DNA of 64,000 nt, taken from assembly GCA_950295325.1 (NCBI GenBank), contig OX485805.1:52724758-52788757 (forward strand), written 5' to 3'. The notes beneath the pieces are model-generated. The model was not told the origin of the DNA and made no database searches. It saw only the letters and a list, made by a program, of their open reading frames with translations. This stretch comes from Polytrichum commune. Taxonomy: Eukaryota; Streptophyta; Polytrichopsida; Polytrichales; Polytrichaceae. Positions 1 to 41,460 of this stretch are shown in pieces. Numbering within the stretch: the stretch's first letter is position 1; every line of letters starts with the position of its first letter. Both the position numbers and the translations under genes were made by a program.

Positions 1-2971
1 ACGGAGACGTGTTCCTGCTGAAGATGGGATCCCGTAACGTGGTAGTGGTGTCCTCCCCAGAAATCGCCAAGGACGTGCTCTTCACAAAGGGAGTCGAGTT
101 CGGATCCCGCAGCGGAAACATTGTCTGGGACATCTTCAGCGGGCGGGGACAGGACATGGTGTTCGCGGCCTACGGTGATCATTGGCGCAAGATGCGTCGC
201 ATTGCCACCGTGCCATTCTTCACCAACAAGTCAGTCCAGCGGCTGCAAGGCGGATGGGAGGATGAGACTGACCGTGCCATCGAAGATCTCAAACACCGAC
301 CAGAGTCGGCCACCTCCGGGGTGGTGATCCGGAAGAGGCTGCAGCTGCTCATGTACAATGTCATTTACCGGATGATCTTCGACACAAGGTTCAAGAGCGA
401 GGAGGATCCGTTGTTTTTGAAGCTGAGGGCGCTTAACCTGACACGGAGCCGTTTGACGCAGAGCTTCGAGTACAACTTTGGGGTTTTCATCCCCATCCTG
501 CGACCGTTCTTGCGAGGATTTCTGCAACTGTGCCGGGATATCAACCGGGAGAGGCATGCCATCTTCAAGAGCTTTCTCGATGACCACAAGTGAGTGTGTA
601 GGGTTTAGGGTTTAGTGAAGTAGGCCCATTTACCAGGTTTTGTGACATGTCCACGTCACCCCATGTTTCCCTCCCATGCTTCCCTAGATTGTAAATTAAT
701 GATGTGTTGATTGCCATTTCAAGTTGGCAAGCTCTCTAGTGAGTGACGTAGAAGCAAGCCCATGCACTAGGTTTTTTGATCCACTTCATCCCGTGATTTC
801 CTCCCATTTTTCTTCAGGTGGTAAATTGTTCAACGTTGCTTCTTGGTTCATTGGTTTATTTCCACTTCTATGAAAAACAAAAAAAATTAGTATAGAATAT
901 ATAGTCTTAACAATTATGGTTGTAATGCAAAAACCAACCCACACTGAATACTCCCTTAAATAGTTGCTCCAAAATTATGTTTTAAAGACGCTGACCCCTG
1001 CAGACACAACAGATAGTTGCCACCTGAGGATAAGCCTCAAGTGTTCTAATTCTGTCAATATGCTTTTAGTTGCTATTGATTGAAGGTCGTGTCATGTGTG
1101 TACGTAAGCTGATGGGTTTCAAAATTTGGCAGGAGGATTGCGAGTACGAAGGGTCCTGAACTGGTGAAGGAATGTGGTATCGACCATATTCTCGAAGCAA
1201 AAAAGAATGGAGAGATCACTGAGGCTAACATCCTCTACTTGATTGAGAATCTCAATGGTGCAGGTACTGGGGATTTAACTACTTATCTCTTGTGTGTCAT
1301 CCCACCATGGCCCACAGTGCAAAATATGTGTAAAATGGCAATACACTCTAGTTATTATAAATGAAAAGTGCATTATGAGATGAATCAAGAAATATAAAAG
1401 TAACTGCTTTCTAGTCTAGCTAGCACACTTTACCAACAAAAAAAAAATTTTAAAAAATCATCCACTATTCATTCTTTTAAGGTTAGACTTCTGAACTTTG
1501 AACATTTTCATGTAAGAAAGTCAGGCTACAAAATGGCATGAGGCAAGCATAAACCCTTAACTCTAAATGGAATGGAATTCGGAAAGCCGAGCATAAAGTA
1601 TGAAGAAAGACACAGAACATCTGATACCACACTGATCTTTCATATTTAGATCTAAGGGTCTTTCTCCAAAACTATCTCATGATAAACTTTGTATGGATTG
1701 TGGAGATTGTCTAAGTACGTGAATTGAACCAGGACCAGTTTTCCTCTGTACCCTTGAAGTTGAGTCCAAATTTAGGTTTGCAGGACATCATAATGTTTCG
1801 ACAATGGATATTGGTTCCAAAAATCTATGTTGGAAATTGAGAAGTCGAGTATAAAGTGTGAAGAACTCAAACTAATCATCTGATGTGGCAGCCTTTAGAA
1901 TTAAGAGAGGCTCTTTGTCGAAGAGAATTTCAGAATGAACTTTGTGTGGATTTGGAGATTTATACATGGATGGAACCTTGAAGACCAGTTACAGTCTCTG
2001 CGCCCTTGATGTTGAGCCACCATTGGAGAACTCCCAGGTCGACATGAATCATTTTCCTTGAAGGTCGACGAATAAATCCAATTTCGTTCAATTTCAATTC
2101 TTCTTTAAAAAAATCATTTTTGCAGGAATCGAGACCACGTTATGGTCCATAGAGTGGGGGGTGGCGGAACTAGTGAACAACCCCGAGATGCAAACACGCA
2201 TCCGGGACGAGCTCGATGCCGTCCTCGGGCGAGGCACCCTGGTGACAGCCGCCGACACACACAACAACAAGCTCCCGTACTTCACGGCATTTGTGAAGGA
2301 GGTGATGCGCTTCCATATGTCCATCCCGCTCCTCGTCCCCCACATGAACCTCCAGCCCGAGAAGCTCGCAGGCTACGACATCCCCGCGCACAGCCAGGTC
2401 AGTGTCCGGGGACAATAATCGGTCAAAATCCTAGTGTTGCCAAGTCCAACCGGTTACATGTTCCGATCTTTCAGGCTTTATTTATTTTTGGTCGATCGGA
2501 GGCACACTCTGTAGATCCTTCTAAATCAATCGGTAAACTTCCTTGGAAGACTTGAACTTCAACCAGCTATTTCTCAAAACTCAACCGGTCGATCTGTAAT
2601 AACTAGCGGTTGATTCTCCTCGTTCACTGAGCCAGGTATTTGTGAACTCGTGGTGGATCGCCAACAACCCCAAGTACTGGGAGCAGCCCGACAAGTTCAT
2701 GCCCGAGCGCTTCTTGGACGGCCAGCCCGCGGCCAAGATGGAGATCACAGGGAACGACTTCCGCTTCCTCCCCTTCGGCGTCGGCCGACGGTCGTGCCCC
2801 GGGATCGTGATCGCCGTTCCCGTGCTGTTCATCGTGCTGGGGCGCCTCGTCCAATCGCTGGAGCTGCTGCCGCCACCTGGCGTCAAAAAGGTGGACGTCA
2901 GCGGCACCTGCGGCCAATTCAGCAACCGCATTGCCACCCACTCCACCGTCGTCCTTCGCCCAAGGACGTAG
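1..2971 (+). CDS. C4H: trans-cinnamate 4-hydroxylase (CYP73A), copy 1, 5'-partial
   Basis: Cytochrome P450 of the CYP73A family, which converts trans-cinnamate to p-coumarate at the ER membrane in the phenylpropanoid pathway. Exons that join in frame are <1-589 (reading frame from base 3), 1133-1263, 2126-2397 and 2636-2971, giving 441 visible residues. The membrane anchor and roughly the first 75-95 residues lie left of the window. Visible motifs are the I-helix AGIETTLWS, the K-helix ExxR in KEVMR, the PERF motif, and the heme loop [10 protein letters not shown] with its cysteine ligand. The protein ends in RPRT and TAG. The 131-bp second exon matches the short C4H middle exon. The third intron (2398-2635) is not present in copy 2 and coincides with a transposon-like insertion; without splicing the frame meets TAA at 2416-2418. 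All other motifs are intact, so the gene looks functional. Family assignment is certain; activity is inferred. Confidence 0.93.
2400..2629 (+). mobile_element. hAT-like non-autonomous element acting as an intron in C4H copy 1
   Basis: A 230-bp insertion inside the last C4H exon. It begins CAGTGTCCGGGG and ends CGTTCACTG; the two ends are imperfect inverted repeats (about 13 of the outer 17 bases match). It is flanked by a perfect 8-bp duplication, AGCCAGGT, at 2392-2399 and 2630-2637. A CAGTG terminus with an 8-bp duplication is typical of hAT elements. The AGGT in the duplicated target makes the intron 2398-2635: donor CAG|GTCAGTG and acceptor GAGCCAG|GT, with the pyrimidine-rich TTCTCCTCGTTC just upstream of the acceptor. 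Removal restores the codons for Ser-Gln-Val-Phe-Val with no gain or loss against copy 2. There is no coding capacity, so it would need a transposase from elsewhere. Confidence 0.88.
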
Positions 2972-6970: not shown

Positions 6971-9900
6971 TTACACCCTGGGTCTGACGACAACTGTGGA
7001 GTGGGTAGCGATGTGAAGACTGAACTGCCCACCTTTCTCTGAAACATCGATTTTCTTCACACCGGGAGGAGGAAGAAGCTCGAAAGATTGGATGAGCCGG
7101 CCGAGGACGATGGATAACAAGGGCATCGCGATGATGATTCCCGGGCACGATCGCCGGCCCGCGCCGAACGGCAGGAACCGGAAGTCGTTACCCGTTGCCT
7201 CGATCTTGCCGTCAAGGAAGCGGTCGGGGTTAAACTTCTCGGGTTCATCCCAGTGCTTGGGGTTGTTGGCGATCCACCACGCGTTCACGAGGATCTTGCT
7301 CTCCGACGGGATGTCGTAGCCGGCGAGCTTCGCCTGGTGGAGGTTCATGTGAGGGACGAGTAGCGGGATGGCCATGTGGAGACGCATCACCTCCTTCACA
7401 AAGGCTGAAAGGTAGGGAAGCTTGTTGTTGCATGTGTCGGGCTCGGTGACGAGGTTACCCTTTCCGAGGACGTCGTCGAGCTCCTTCAAGATGCGGGATT
7501 GCATCTCGGGATTGTTCACGAGCTCCGCCACTCCCCACTCAATCGACCACAAAGTTGTTTCAATTGCTGCAAAACACACAAACAAACCCAGAACGAAAAC
7601 AAAAGCTGATCAGTCCGCTGATGAAAAGATGCACCGGAAGAAGAGATGCACATTGATGACTCTAATATTGGCACCGGCATGAATTTATGATGTCGCTTCA
7701 CCTTTCAAGGTAGTCTAATTTTATGTGTAACTTTGAAAACGGACGTCCAAGAATTAGAGGGGACTTTGAAGACTACTACCTCCGAGGTTGGCAGGAAACG
7801 AGGAGCGAGATTGACAACGAATGACATCTTCATGTTTGGAATATTTACCTGCCACATTGATGTTCTCAATAATGTACAGAACATTGTCCTCGTTGATTTC
7901 CCCTTTCTTCTGAGCATCCAGAATGTGGTCGATGGCACACTTATCAGCATCTGATTGAGCCCCCTTCACACTTAACAATTTCCTGCCAATGTTCAACACC
8001 GATTTGTTAGTGAAATTCACCCATTTAAGCATTGTAACGTCCTACCGAAATTTTCTTGGTGAACTTAGAACAAACAAGAGAAAAAATCATCATCCTCAAT
8101 TACACAATTCAATCGATTGCTAGAAATCAATCAGGTTGAATTGTTACTGATAGGAAACATCATGTGCCTTGAAGACAGAGCTCATGAGTGCCATTTAACA
8201 CAGGGTCGCAAAGATCATATTTTGTGGCAAAATAGTCAATTTCGTGCACACTTGACAAACAATGTGGTTCTTTCCATGGGTACCAGGTGACAAATGTCAA
8301 ATGGGCCATGCCAAAAAGACCGTTCTTCACCTGAGAGGAAAGTCTAAGGATTTTCAAAGGCTCTGCACCATCGATACCTCACCATAGACTACCCTTTACT
8401 ATTGATACGCTTCACCCGAAGTTTCCCGGGAGTGAACCACGCATTCCAGAACATCCACCTCCCTTGCTCCAAAAGCATCATATTGGTTAACAGATTCTCC
8501 ACAGTTCATAACGATGTGGATAATCTTGTACACTAAGGTTTGAATTACTAAGAGGTGGTAGAATAAGCCGTATGGTCCAATAGATTCTTTACAAATATCT
8601 AAATAATGTGCTAAATCTTGTACAACCAGATTGACTTTCCAACAAGATGTAGAAGAGGCCCTAAATTCAAGTGCACACACCTTACTCACTCAGAAAATTT
8701 CATGTGGTCCACCAGATTCTCTGCAAAATTTTAAACTATCTACATACACAATCTTGTACAATCATGTTGAATTGCAAATTCGTGGTGGAAGATTCCTAAA
8801 AAGGTTGAACTAATTGAAATTTTTAGAATGACCCAAGTTAAGTTTCTGCTTACTTGCGCTCCTCGAGGAAGGATTCCTTGAAAAGAGCCAACCTCCGGTC
8901 CTTGATATCCTGACACACCTTCAAGTAGCCCTTGAGGAACGGTCGCAGGATGGGGATAAAGTCACCGTAATTGTACTCGAAACTCTGTGCCAACCGAGAC
9001 CGCTCGCCATTCAACGCCTTCAGCTTCACATACAAAGGGTCATCTTCGCTCTCGAAGCGAGAATCGAACATCATCCGGTACATGATGTTGTACATCATGA
9101 GCTGCAATCCCTTGCGGATCACCACACCGGTGGTGGCTGCCTCGGGCTTAGCCTTGAGGTTCTTGATCACATGGTTAGCTTCGTCTTCCCATGCCACGCG
9201 AGATTGTTGCACCACCTTGCTGGTGAAGAAGGGCACGGTCATAATGCGCCTCATCCGCCGCCAATGCTCCCCGTAGACCGTGAACACCATGTCTTGGCCG
9301 TTCCCTGTGAAAATGTCGAACACCACGTTGCGAGTTCGGGAGCCGAACTCCACTCCCTGTGTGTGAAGAACATCTTTAGCTATGTCGGGGGATGACACCA
9401 CAACCAAGTTGCGTTGCCCCATCCGCAGCATGAACACGTCGCCGTACTTCTGAGACAACTCTGCCAAGTTCCTGTGGTTCAAGTCATCTCCGACCTGGGA
9501 ACGCAAACACCGATTCAAGGTGCCAAGTTAACCCACTTGTCTCACACAAATCAATAAGCTCTTATTCAAAAATAATTCACCTGAAACTACCGAAGGTCCA
9601 AATTAACCCACTTACTGATCCACAACCATGCTCAAACGAGTATCAAGTCATCTCCGACCTGGGAACCCAAACATCGAATCAAGGTGGAAGTTGACCCACT
9701 TCTTTCACTACCATGAGCACTTAATCAAAGAGCATTCACTGGCAACTATCGAAAGTGCAAATTAACCCACTTACTGATTCACAACCGTGAACACTAATAC
9801 TCAAACAGGTTTCGCGGAAAACTATCGAAGTTTCCAAGTTCACCCATACATTTCACAACCATGAGCACTAGTACTCAAACAAGTTCCACCAAAACCAATC

Positions 9901-10589
9901 GACCACCTACGAGGTTCATATTAACCAAACCTTCTGTCTGTGGAGAGTGATCAAACTACAGCGCTATTCAATACGAGGAACGTGATGTTTGGGAAGATGA
10001 CTTCGTTGCAGAGTTGTGGAGATTGAGTTTCTACGAGGTTTGGGTGTTTGGAAGCATTGACTGCAACAGTTCTTGGAACCTTCTGTTTCAACCTCTGTTC
10101 AGATATTATTCCATATTGCGATACCCTGCATGTTTGAACCTAAAGATAGGTAAACAGTGCTGTTGTATGCTCTGCACAGATTTAAGTTTGTGCAGTGCCT
10201 TCGTCTTGTCCTCAAACCAGCCTTACAAACAATGGCTTCATCTTCTCCAACCATTCAGCCATTGTATGAATATTTGATCATTCTCAGTTCTTGGAGTGGA
10301 TCACAGACAGAGACTGTTCAATTGATTTAGGGGCGAGTCAACAGACCTGCAGCCAGTTGCCCACAATTGGCAGCGCAATAGGACCAGGGGGGAGGTTCAA
10401 CTTGGGAGCCTTAAGCTTCATGATGATAATCCCCACAAAGACTGCAACACACAACCCCTGCACCACAGTCGCAAAGGTGAACATTGAGCTCAGATGCGGA
10501 GCCGACGAGTCCACTTCCGCTGCCGCCACCTGCTGAACCAACAACATCCCAGCTCCAGCCACTGACACCATGGCCGCCCTCACCCCCAT
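6971..10589 (-). CDS. C4H: trans-cinnamate 4-hydroxylase (CYP73A), copy 2, complete
   Basis: Complete C4H of 537 residues on the minus strand. Exons are 10589-10347, 9494-8854, 7982-7849 and 7566-6971; all join in frame at GT-AG introns, and the third is exactly the 134 bp usual for C4H. The N-terminus carries about 35 extra residues, then a hydrophobic anchor (about residues 36-57) and the PPGP hinge (67-70), a length resembling class II C4Hs. Later motifs are the I-helix AAIETTLWS (about 339), ExxR (398-401), and [10 protein letters not shown] with heme Cys480. The enzyme hydroxylates cinnamate with electrons from NADPH-P450 reductase on the ER. An additional intron follows Trp-Leu-Gln81. 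The last exon is uninterrupted where copy 1 has its transposon intron. A second Met (residue 7) could also be the start. Confidence 0.95.
9494..9900 (-). repeat. tandem repeats in intron 1 of C4H copy 2, with a duplicated splice acceptor
   Basis: The intron next to exon 2 consists of degraded repeat units of about 80/164 bp. Recurring blocks on the + strand are CAAATTAACCCACTTACTGA, CACAACCATGAGCACT and AACTATCGAAG. One unit copies the exon boundary: AAGTCATCTCCGACCTGGGAA at the true acceptor (exon start 9494) recurs 164 bp upstream (exon-like start 9658). Confidence 0.8.
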
Positions 10590-21254: not shown

Positions 21255-21500
21255 CAATGAAGAGGGGGAACCCACCAACCGCTACTTACAGATGAACCGG
21301 TCGAGTTTGAGAAATAACCGGTTCAAATTCAAGACTCCAGGAAAATCACCAATCCAGTTAGAGGAATTTACAGAAGATTCCTCAAATTAATAAAGAAAAA
21401 GCGAAGAAAAAAATGTGAACACGCAACCGGTTGGTCTTGCAAACACTAGTAAAGCATAGGATCTCGACCAATTTATGCCCAAAAAAATCCCCGGACACTG
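21255..21500 (-). mobile_element. hAT-like element, same family as the C4H intron
   Basis: Read on the minus strand it starts CAGTGTCCGGGGATTTTTTT and ends CCCTCTTCATTG. It shares GGTCRARATCCTA, AACCGGTTATTTCTCAAACT and GTAGCGGTTG with the element at 2400-2629. The 8-bp target duplication CTAAGCAT lies at 21246-21253 (one extra C before the element). On the right it is CTAAG at 21501-21505, continued by CAT only after the later insertion of the 21505-22360 element. Confidence 0.75.
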
Positions 21501-21504
21501 CTAA

Positions 21505-22360
21505 GAGCAAGCCCAGTCGTTCCTGGATCTGCATTTGCATCCGGGAATGAAAAGTGGCCTCCATCCAGAATGCAGATGCAGACCCATGCAAAACTGCCAC
21601 TCATTTTGCATTGCTTTCATCAGAATTTCTTCTAAAATGATTTGTAGTTTTCTGAAGTCATGAACTTCAACCGGTTAGTTCTCAAACTCATATGTGCTTC
21701 ATGCGTAACTAGTATTTTTTTCTTGGTTTACCCTAAACTATAACTGGTTATTTTTGAGCTCCTCCATGCTTCATGCGTAACTATAATTATTTCCTAGGTT
21801 ACCCTAAACCTCAACCGGTTATTTCTCAAGCTCATCCGTAATTTGCACATGAATATAATTATCTCCTGGTTTACCCTAAACCTCAACTGGTTCAACCGGT
21901 TATTTCTCAAGCTCATCTGTAATGTGCACGTGAATATAATTATTTCATGGTCTACCCTAAACCTCAACCGGTTATTTCTCAAACTCATCCGTAATTTGCA
22001 TGTAACTAGAATTATCTTCTGGTTTACCCTAAACCTCAACCGGTTATTTCTCAAACTCCTCCCTAATTTTGCGCGTAACTAGAATTATCTCATGGTTTAC
22101 CCTAAACCTCGTCATTCACTAGGACCCTATCATATTGAGTTGTCTTTAGTTAAAAGCCGCCATGAAGTTGTTTGTCCTTAGCTGATAGTAGGTTCCCTAC
22201 ATATCTCGACGAAATGCAGGGAGTTCTGCACTTCCTGTATTATTTTACATCCAATTTTAGCAAATAGCAGGGTGACTGGGCCAGTATCCTGCATCTTCAA
22301 CCGCATCGCGGATGAAAAAGCGCAAATGCAGATGCAGGTGCAGGGTCATTGGGCTTGCCC
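21505..22360 (+). mobile_element. PIF/Harbinger-like element, nested in the target duplication of the hAT-like element
   Basis: 856 bp with terminal inverted repeats GAGCAAGCCCAGT at the left and ATTGGGCTTGCCC at the right; similarity continues inward (GCATTTGC blocks). It is flanked by the TAA target duplication (21502-21504 and 22361-22363), as expected of PIF/Harbinger. There is no transposase; the inside is mostly a tandem array. Confidence 0.8.
21664..22110 (+). repeat. tandem array, about six units of about 72-78 bp
   Basis: Units contain AACCTCAACCGGTTATTTCT, then CAA.CTCATCCGTAATTTGC, AATTAT and TGGTTTACCCTAA. The array fills the Harbinger-like element. Its core AACCGGTTATTTCTCAA also occurs in the 3' part of the hAT-like family, so one element probably amplified a piece of the other. 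Confidence 0.85.
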
Positions 22361-31405: not shown

Positions 31406-32038
31406 TCATGAACAGAAAATTGGAGACGACATCAGGAACTGGAACTCCCTGAAATCCACCATCTGGTCACCGTCTCGGTCGACACTGCGGATCATGCACC
31501 GACAATCCTCCAGGGTCGTGTGCTTGTCGCCCAGGCTGACCATCACTCGGTGCAGCTCGTCTGCCGAAATGAACCCATTCTGGTCCACATCGAACACGTC
31601 GAACGCAGATCGCAATGCTTGCTTCTCTTCATCATCAACACTGTCTGCAGATAATTCCTCTCCACCAACTTCACTAATTCCTCCGCTACTGCTGCCACTG
31701 AGAGTCCGGGATAATTCTGCCGAATTAGCAGCACTGGTGCTTTTGGTTGTGTTGAATCTGATGAACTCGTCAAGGTCGATAAACCCATCGCCATCCGCAT
31801 CCGCTCTCATCATCATCTCATCGACTTCGGAGTCCTTGAGAACGTTGCGGCCATCATCAAGGCTGCTGAGTACAGCAACAAGCTCGGTTTTGGAGATTTT
31901 GCCATCGCCGTCCCTGTCGAACACCTTGAAGGTTGCGGTTAGCTCTTTCACAAGAGGGGCAGGTATGTCACTCCAGGTCCCCGAATTACGCCTTGACGAC
32001 CTCGAGCTGCTGCTCCGGCTCCTCAACCGCAACTTCAT
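31406..32038 (-). CDS. calmodulin-like protein, four EF-hands (CML copy 1)
   Basis: Intronless gene for a 210-residue calcium sensor. A basic Ser/Arg-rich N-terminus (residues 1-20) precedes two EF-hand pairs: loops DRDGDGKISKTE (41-52), DADGDGFIDLDE (80-91), DVDQNGFISADE (150-161) and DRDGDQMVDFRE (187-198). A long Ser-rich linker (about 98-135) separates the pairs. Asp at position 1 and Glu at position 12 are kept in all four loops, so all could bind calcium; loop 4 has Gln instead of Gly at position 6, as in CML copy 2. Such proteins bind Ca2+ and then targets; the target here is unknown. A TATA box lies about 300 bp upstream. There is no obvious transmembrane segment or signal peptide. 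Confidence 0.93.
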   Translation of the reverse strand: MKLRLRSRSSSSRSSRRNSGTWSDIPAPLVKELTATFKVFDRDGDGKISKTELVAVLSSLDDGRNVLKDSEVDEMMMRADADGDGFIDLDEFIRFNTTKSTSAANSAELSRTLSGSSSGGISEVGGEELSADSVDDEEKQALRSAFDVFDVDQNGFISADELHRVMVSLGDKHTTLEDCRCMIRSVDRDGDQMVDFREFQFLMSSPIFCS

Positions 32039-32342
32039 TTTCGAAAGATAATCTATATGTAAAGTTCAACCCTGGAAGTTTCTTTCAACCTCACTTTGAA
32101 AACACACTTTGAGACTCTACTCTGCAGATCACAAAGTCACTTTGAAATACACGTTGAAACTTAGCCCTAGTACAAAACACAAACTCTCTGTGAAAGTTAA
32201 CCCTGCAGGTCACACACTCATTATGAAACACACTTTGGAACTCACAAACCCTAACTTGTGCACATCACAGATACGATAGAGATGCTGATGATTCACTCAA
32301 GCTTCTGCAAATTCTGATCCCACTAGACTCATCCATCCTTCT

Positions 32343-40271: not shown

Positions 40272-40836
40272 TCGAAGTGAGTGTGCCAGATTTGTGGTGA
40301 GTTGAAGAGTGTGGGTGATTGATTGCCTGAGCAACCTGAGTGGATCAGATGCTTCGGGGTAGATATGTGACGTTGATTCAGGTTTAAAACCTAAAATCAG
40401 AATCAGGCTTCAAAGCTGTGGTAGACTCCTAGAAGCTTTCCACAACCTGAGAGGGAAAAAAACGCTTGACAGGTTCGTTCTGACCTTCATCGTGCAATCA
40501 TCGATCTCAGACCCTGTCTTCGATTGGGGTTTAGGGTTGATCCTCAGTTTTAAGTGTGTTGTTGGTTCAATGTTAGAATCAGAGTGCCGAATTTGAGGTC
40601 ACAAGAGCATCTTAGATTTGTAGACATTAGAGCTCTGTTAAACTCCTGGTACCTGAATTTCTACAAACCGAGAGGAAACACGTTTGACAGATATTTATTT
40701 ATTTATTTGACCTTTCATCATTCATTCATCGATCTCAACTGAACCCTGTGTTTGGGTTGATCTTCAGTTTCAAAGGTTGTAACTATTGTCCAATCCGAGA
40801 ATATACACAGTCAGACTGCCGAAATTTGAGGTCACA
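40272..40836 (+). repeat. tandem duplications in the CML copy 2 leader
   Basis: Related blocks occur three times upstream of the start codon: GTGTGCCAGATTTGTGGTGAG (about 40280), GAGTGCCGAATTTGAGGTCAC (about 40574) and GACTGCCGAAATTTGAGGTC (about 40813). TTCGATTGGGGTTT- and TGATCYTCAGTTT-like blocks recur between them. The unit is about 235-290 bp. Confidence 0.75.
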
Positions 40837-41460
40837 ATGGCGTTGGATTCCGAGAATCAACATGCTCGTGCGGTGGTTAAGAAGCTCACCAGTTACACCG
40901 ATCAGATCACTACCCGCCCCGGCCTCCCCGCTCACCTTGTGAGGGAGCTGAGCGAGACGTTCAAGATCATCGATGTGAACGGTGATGGCAAAATCTCGAA
41001 GGAGGATCTGGGGATAGTCGCTCGGTCTCTCGGGGACACGGTGGAAGACGCCGACCTGGAGAAGTTGGTGGCCGAGGTGGACGCAGATGGCGATGGGTCC
41101 ATCAACTTGCAAGAATTCATTGATCTCAACACGCGAGCCGTCGATGGCGAATCAAACCATGTTGACAAGTTTGGAGAAGATTCCGAGTCTGCAGAAGACG
41201 CATCCGGTAATTACTTTGGAAAGTTTGGTGTGGACCGTGAATCCCTACTGTCTGCGTTCAATGTGTTCGACGCAAACGGCGATGGGTTCATCTCCGCAGA
41301 TGAGCTTCACAGAGTACTCGTGGGGTTTGGTGACAAGAAAGTGTCCCTGGAGGATTGCTGCGCGATGATCGAGTGCGTCGACGAAGATGGCGATCAGAAG
41401 GTCAATTTCAAGGAGTTTCAGTCTCTCATGATGGGTAGCTGCCAAGATTCCGAAACTTGA
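40837..41460 (+). CDS. calmodulin-like protein, four EF-hands (CML copy 2)
   Basis: Intronless gene for 207 residues. The start is the ATG in CACAATGGCG, a good plant context; the same frame stays open upstream but without an ATG. EF-hand loops are DVNGDGKISKED (46-57), DADGDGSINLQE (82-93), DANGDGFISADE (145-156) and DEDGDQKVNFKE (182-193), with an acidic linker of about 50 residues between pairs. Loop 1 ends in Asp rather than Glu at position 12, which in EF-hands tends to favour Mg2+ or weaken Ca2+ binding. Loop 4 has Gln at position 6, like CML copy 1, and FISADELHRV is shared, so the two are paralogues. The role is a calcium sensor in cytosol or nucleus; targets are unknown. Confidence 0.94.
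   Translation: MALDSENQHARAVVKKLTSYTDQITTRPGLPAHLVRELSETFKIIDVNGDGKISKEDLGIVARSLGDTVEDADLEKLVAEVDADGDGSINLQEFIDLNTRAVDGESNHVDKFGEDSESAEDASGNYFGKFGVDRESLLSAFNVFDANGDGFISADELHRVLVGFGDKKVSLEDCCAMIECVDEDGDQKVNFKEFQSLMMGSCQDSET

Follow-up and report, generated by a model that had tools for sequence, protein, structure and literature searches.

Has a moss gene acquired, from a transposable element lying in one of its coding exons, an intron that can be removed without altering the protein, and if so, what supplied the splice sites? The locus lies at the start of the 64,000-nucleotide stretch of Polytrichum commune DNA analysed here (contig OX485805.1; 'the window') and carries a C4H-like gene, termed C4H1, whose ancestral last exon is divided by a short element placed between two copies of an 8-bp target. 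The reading favoured here, and considered very probable, is that of a hAT-type element framed by its target duplication (TSD) and spliced out of C4H1 as a phase-0 intron.

The host gene and the anatomy of the insertion

C4H1 is predicted from its nearest relatives to be a P450 of the C4H (CYP73) type, and it matches PDB entry 6vby, a cinnamic acid 4-hydroxylase, with an E value of 4.4e-205. Among the best 120 of 1000 protein matches, the top identities (66–70%) were to proteins of Physcomitrium, Sphagnum and Ceratodon together with a few unnamed proteins, two longer angiosperm proteins had a higher bit score at 59% identity, and a near-identical protein was absent. Likewise, no near-identical protein was present among the best 120 of 272 in a second listing, where the top identity was 77%. 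Description of the host as a lignin-pathway gene, as in an earlier note on this DNA, is misleading given that the host is a moss and that the top identities among the named matches listed are to mosses, which are not known to make lignin. The C4H1 branch is long in the tree (0.34) and exon 5 is four residues longer than in most other alignment rows; relaxed constraint on C4H1 is possible. All four C4H1 introns are GT-AG, the putative transposon-derived intron included.

Table 1. Positions in the window of the two C4H genes, the insertion and its parts, and a further copy of the element
Feature	Position	Strand	Remarks
C4H1 exon 1	about 1.1–1.3 kb upstream of the window (L009)	+	gene model with upstream sequence
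C4H1 exon 2	1..589	+	starts 49 bases before the window
C4H1 exon 3	1133..1263	+	gene model
C4H1 exon 4	2126..2397	+	5' half of the ancestral last exon
Target copy 1, AGCCAGGT	2392..2399	+	AGCCAG encodes S-Q; GT would be the donor
Putative transposon-derived spliceosomal intron	2398..2635	+	238 bp, GT-AG, phase 0
hAT-like MITE copy	2400..2629	+	230 bp; CAGTG...CACTG ends; supported by family copies and repeats
Branch-point-like TTGAT (yTnAy)	2610..2614	+	A at 2613 is the 23rd base from the intron 3' end
Target copy 2, AGCCAGGT	2630..2637	+	second AG would be the acceptor; GT opens the next codon
C4H1 exon 5	2636..2971	+	3' half of the ancestral last exon; presumed haem-binding stretch; stop included
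C4H2, convergent paralogue	6971..10571	-	exons 10571–10347, 9494–8854, 7982–7849 and 7566–6971
Further full-length copy of the element family	21255..21500	-	78% to the consensus

The direct repeats of AGCCAGGT that flank the element are identical at 8/8 bp. The inverted arms of the element (2399–2416 and 2613–2630), each of which takes in one target base, show 78% complementarity across 18 nt. The junctions of the putative intron read CAG|GTCAGT at the donor and GAGCCAG|GT at the acceptor, and its A+T content is 56% compared with 37.5% across the flanking coding sequence (100 bases per side). At the level of DNA, removal of the intron (238 mod 3 = 1) leaves a stop-free reading frame of 543 aa. 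If the element is kept in the transcript, the frame shifts and a TAA is reached at 2416–2418 after 438 aa, and this reading would lose the stretch of exon 5 that we take to be haem-binding. The earlier note had described a 230-bp insert with CAGTG...CACTG ends and a perfect 8-bp duplication, both AG|GT junctions contained in that duplication, a frame restored by joining across the insert, and a frameshift with TAA upon retention; each of these points stood up to the analysis.

In the proposed mechanism, a 230-bp non-autonomous hAT-type element would have entered AGCCAGGT in the last exon of C4H1 and duplicated its target. The first copy would supply ...AGCCAG|GT, with the terminal CAGTG of the element extending the donor to GTCAGT, and the second copy would supply the acceptor following the pyrimidine-rich 3' end of the element. 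The element together with one target copy could then be excised by the spliceosome as an intron of phase 0, and because the ancestral coding sequence would be unaltered, C4H1 would have remained under purifying selection.

The quality of the donor bears on how completely such an intron would be spliced. Eight of nine bases agree with the donor consensus CAG|GTAAGT, the mismatch being a C rather than an A at +3. This mismatch is consistent with partial intronisation, in which spliced and retained forms coexist and an inefficient or regulated intron lowers C4H1 output, as is the fact that the retained form reaches a stop six codons past the site and is presumably a likely target of NMD. However, the donor is strong apart from +3, and the remaining C4H1 and C4H2 introns, which start with GTCTGT, GTGAGT, GTACTG, GTCTGT, GTAAGC and GTAAAT, include a GTCTGT start in one intron of each gene. 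Partial intronisation is regarded as unlikely, and removal of the element as a regular phase-0 intron is preferred.

Near its 3' end the C4H1 copy carries the stretch GGTTGATTCTCC, which contains TTGAT. A yTnAy motif occurs in the same stretch in 1 of 54 other family copies, a count from which four poorly aligning copies were left out. Having been spotted post hoc, TTGAT lends weak support to splicing.

The element family and its other insertions at AGGT

A family pattern consisting of AGGT and the first 19 bases of the element end, with at most 3 mismatches allowed, was searched for across the 408-Mb genome. Matches numbered 597 on one strand and 578 on the other (1,175), compared with 5 and 1 (6) for the reversed control. 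A consensus of 226 bp was built from the 29 best-BLAST copies, with the C4H1 copy excluded. The family ends are CAGTGTCCGGGGAG...CTCCCCGTTCATTG, and 12 of the 20 outer consensus bases match in inverted register. The TSD is perfect (8/8) in 10 of these 29 copies and 7/8 in a further 8, and 12/29 copies combine a TSD of 7/8 or better with ends matching at 9/10 or better, as against 2/580 control placements. Chance repeats are ruled out by the reversed-pattern and TSD placement controls, and tandem duplication is ruled out as the source of the AGGT repeats as the insert is a dispersed repeat.

Ends of CANNG type, for instance CAGTG/CANTG, are characteristic of hAT elements. The features of a hAT-type MITE that were found comprise 8-bp TSDs, short inverted ends of CANNG type, short length and high copy number, and the family appears hAT-like from its 8-bp duplications and CAGTG ends. 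The claim of a hAT-like element within a C4H gene was in this way borne out by both the number of pattern matches over the control and the 8-bp TSDs. The genome carries the hAT dimerisation domain PF05699 at 150 places that were scored, out of 1060 candidates, and open frames of 698–1084 aa contain 11 of the 150. Within the window, several short pieces of the element resembling a sub-repeat array lie at 21627–22058, next to the second full-length copy.

Insertions elsewhere that might have produced introns in the same manner were sought in one orientation, with AGGT required 0–4 bases before the 5' end of the element. Seventeen matches were obtained, which represent 16 distinct places as two matches fell at one place. 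When the empty sites were joined, the sense frame at C4H1 ran for 112 codons before and 111 codons after the site, and by frame length, a crude criterion, C4H1 is the only one of the 16 places in this orientation where the sense frame is long in both directions from the site. The sense frame at L080 extends 31 codons before and 76 after the joined site. At L074 (G000:C3:35377615), where AGGTAGGT is duplicated 8/8, 133 sense codons precede the site and a stop follows after 2; this copy may have duplicated a natural donor at an exon end. The codons before and after the site total at most 72 at each of the remaining 13 places. At 8 of the 15 places other than C4H1 (L070, L072, L077, L078, L079, L082, L083 and L084) the far end of the element is uncertain, its TSD falling below 6/8 or its terminal match being poor. 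Of the suggestion that other family members would sit in coding exons with AGGT-containing duplications, one good case, C4H1 itself, is what remained among the 16 places of this orientation.

These places bear on the alternative that the family is an Introner, a lineage that makes introns repeatedly in this genome. Such behaviour might be expected of an element whose terminal CAGTG completes a donor behind any target ending in GT and whose 3' end is pyrimidine-rich, and L074 has its duplicated target at an apparent exon end. Yet with long frames on both sides at C4H1 alone, the 16 places show no sign of an introner burst as judged by frame length in one orientation; a family-wide burst is rejected for that orientation, and an Introner identity for the family is held to be very improbable.

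Ancestral state, gene integrity and age

C4H2 encodes 531 aa in four exons, and its three introns are positioned like those of C4H1. Its identity to proteins of Physcomitrium, Sphagnum and Ceratodon is 81–86% in the matches listed, and the JGI protein P0121 is 98% identical across 80% of the C4H2 length. C4H1 and C4H2 share 67% aa identity, with a dN of 0.23 and a dS of 1.38, at which dS is saturated. As had been claimed for the convergent copy, C4H2 is continuous at the site homologous to the insertion, which falls within its unbroken exon 4.

The site is unbroken in 22 of 22 other aligned rows, C4H2 included, although protein rows by themselves show no introns. Several database frames begin with non-C4H letters just before the start of exon 4 and then read through the site, which is the behaviour of genomic exons. 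Possible genomic frames were flagged in 21 of 281 proteins, about 15 of which were upheld by eye (P0169, P0170, P0178, P0209, P0228, P0240, P0241, P0245, P0246, P0254, P0262, P0268, P0269, P0270 and P0280), the others being ordinary upstream exons or ambiguous. Among those upheld, P0209 groups with C4H1, the Ceratodon protein P0009 and the unnamed protein P0010 in one subclade with support of 99/94, and its non-homologous start and a contig of up to 11.9 kb suggest that it is a genomic frame. On these alignments the interruption of C4H1 is the derived state, because both C4H2 and P0209, a frame from the same subclade, are unbroken at the site. An ancestral C4H intron is ruled out, the site being unbroken in C4H2, P0209 and further frames. 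Mosses seem to have a second, more diverged C4H-like subclade (C4H1, P0009, P0010 and P0209), and the convergent pair in the window consists of one member of each moss C4H subclade.

The coding sequence of C4H1 has zero stops and zero frame breaks over its 1,632 bases. Simulated decay of the whole coding sequence at the divergence of the element itself (0.161) left a stop-free share of 0.00025 among 4,000 copies, a figure that presumes the 16% divergence to have accrued after the insertion in a dead gene. Indels expected in an unconstrained C4H1 coding sequence number about 35 at the rate of the element and 14 at the family median. Exon 5 carries little weight by itself, as 0.24 of simulated copies are stop-free at the same divergence. 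From the anatomy and the intact gene together, we infer splicing of 2398–2635.

A disruptive recent insertion would offer a different account, in which transcripts keep the element or splice it badly and C4H2 makes up for a newly formed C4H1 pseudogene. The intact paralogue lies 4 kb away, C4H1 has diverged from it, and cut-and-paste can relocate a copy of the element that is already diverged, in which case the divergence would not date the insertion. Against this account, C4H1 lacks any stop or frame break, and its target holds AGGT, which is present in only about 2% of random 8-bp targets (5/256). A fresh pseudogene is accordingly judged quite improbable beside an element spliced from an intact frame.

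The earlier note had also called the gain recent. Against a consensus built from 58 other copies, the C4H1 copy shows 35 differences over 217 positions, 25 of the 35 being transitions, and it carries 5 indels as compared with a family median of 2, where both consensus and median retain four poorly aligning copies (42–45% differing). Nineteen of the 35 changed bases occur in at most 5 other copies. The top long match to the C4H1 copy elsewhere in the genome is 78%, from 40 scored of about 2,900 candidates. A recent insertion is not supported by these sequence comparisons. The perfect TSD is a weak clock here and tells little of age, since the majority of its positions are constrained by coding or splicing. 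Conversely, since cut-and-paste can carry an already diverged copy to a new site, divergence is no proof of an old insertion.

Relation to known intron-making elements

Ac/Ds elements belong to hAT and make 8-bp TSDs. Dennis et al. in 1988 reportedly described, to go by the title, the splicing of Ds1 as an intron from maize Adh1-Fm335, and a 1994 maize study is said, again by title, to concern Ds creating an intron. As at C4H1, a hAT element would in these cases be spliced out of a plant gene; however, the maize cases are mutant alleles (the second reportedly so), whereas the C4H1 insertion stands in a moss reference genome, in a gene that is intact, and the AGGT within its TSD would make the splice exact. 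With hAT superfamily MITEs the C4H1 family shares the 8-bp TSD, CAGTG/CANTG ends, shortness and copy number, and as for those MITEs, hAT transposase domains are present in the same genome.

The route through target duplication had been noted as already proposed, and PMC3443670 does state it: a duplicated AGGT gives an AG|GT donor and an AG|G acceptor, with the coding sequence preserved. The same arrangement is found in C4H1 with no difference in principle from that model, to which C4H1 adds a natural bryophyte case with an 8-bp hAT-like TSD. Introners are described in PMC9860276 as non-autonomous DNA elements with TSD and TIR whose splice sites are drawn from the TSD, and the large survey reported there gives zero introners in land plants. 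The C4H1 element is like them in being non-autonomous, in its TSD and TIR and in its TSD-borne splice sites, but Introners make many introns per genome (PMC9860276) while one case was found for the C4H1 family. By title, no report of a MITE-made intron in a moss was found in the open-licence literature. The mechanism is already known, and C4H1 is, its age aside, a clean natural example of it in a bryophyte.

Intron gains with a still-recognisable source are few. The C4H1 locus is legible throughout, comprising the element, the TSD, the junctions, an unbroken neighbouring paralogue and an unbroken relative, and each step of the AGGT model is therefore testable there. More tentatively, land plants might gain perfect introns at a low but steady rate from hAT MITEs, refined afterwards by changes such as TTGAT, a generalisation that is possible and still doubtful. 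If true, CAGTG-ended hAT elements bring with them the part of a 5' splice site that the target lacks, and an 8-bp target ending in AGGT would yield an AG|GTCAGT donor and a matching acceptor in one step.

Elsewhere in the window, two frames with EF-hand-like loops were seen by eye, at 31406–32065 on the reverse strand and 40783–41460 on the forward strand. Both probably encode calmodulin-like proteins.
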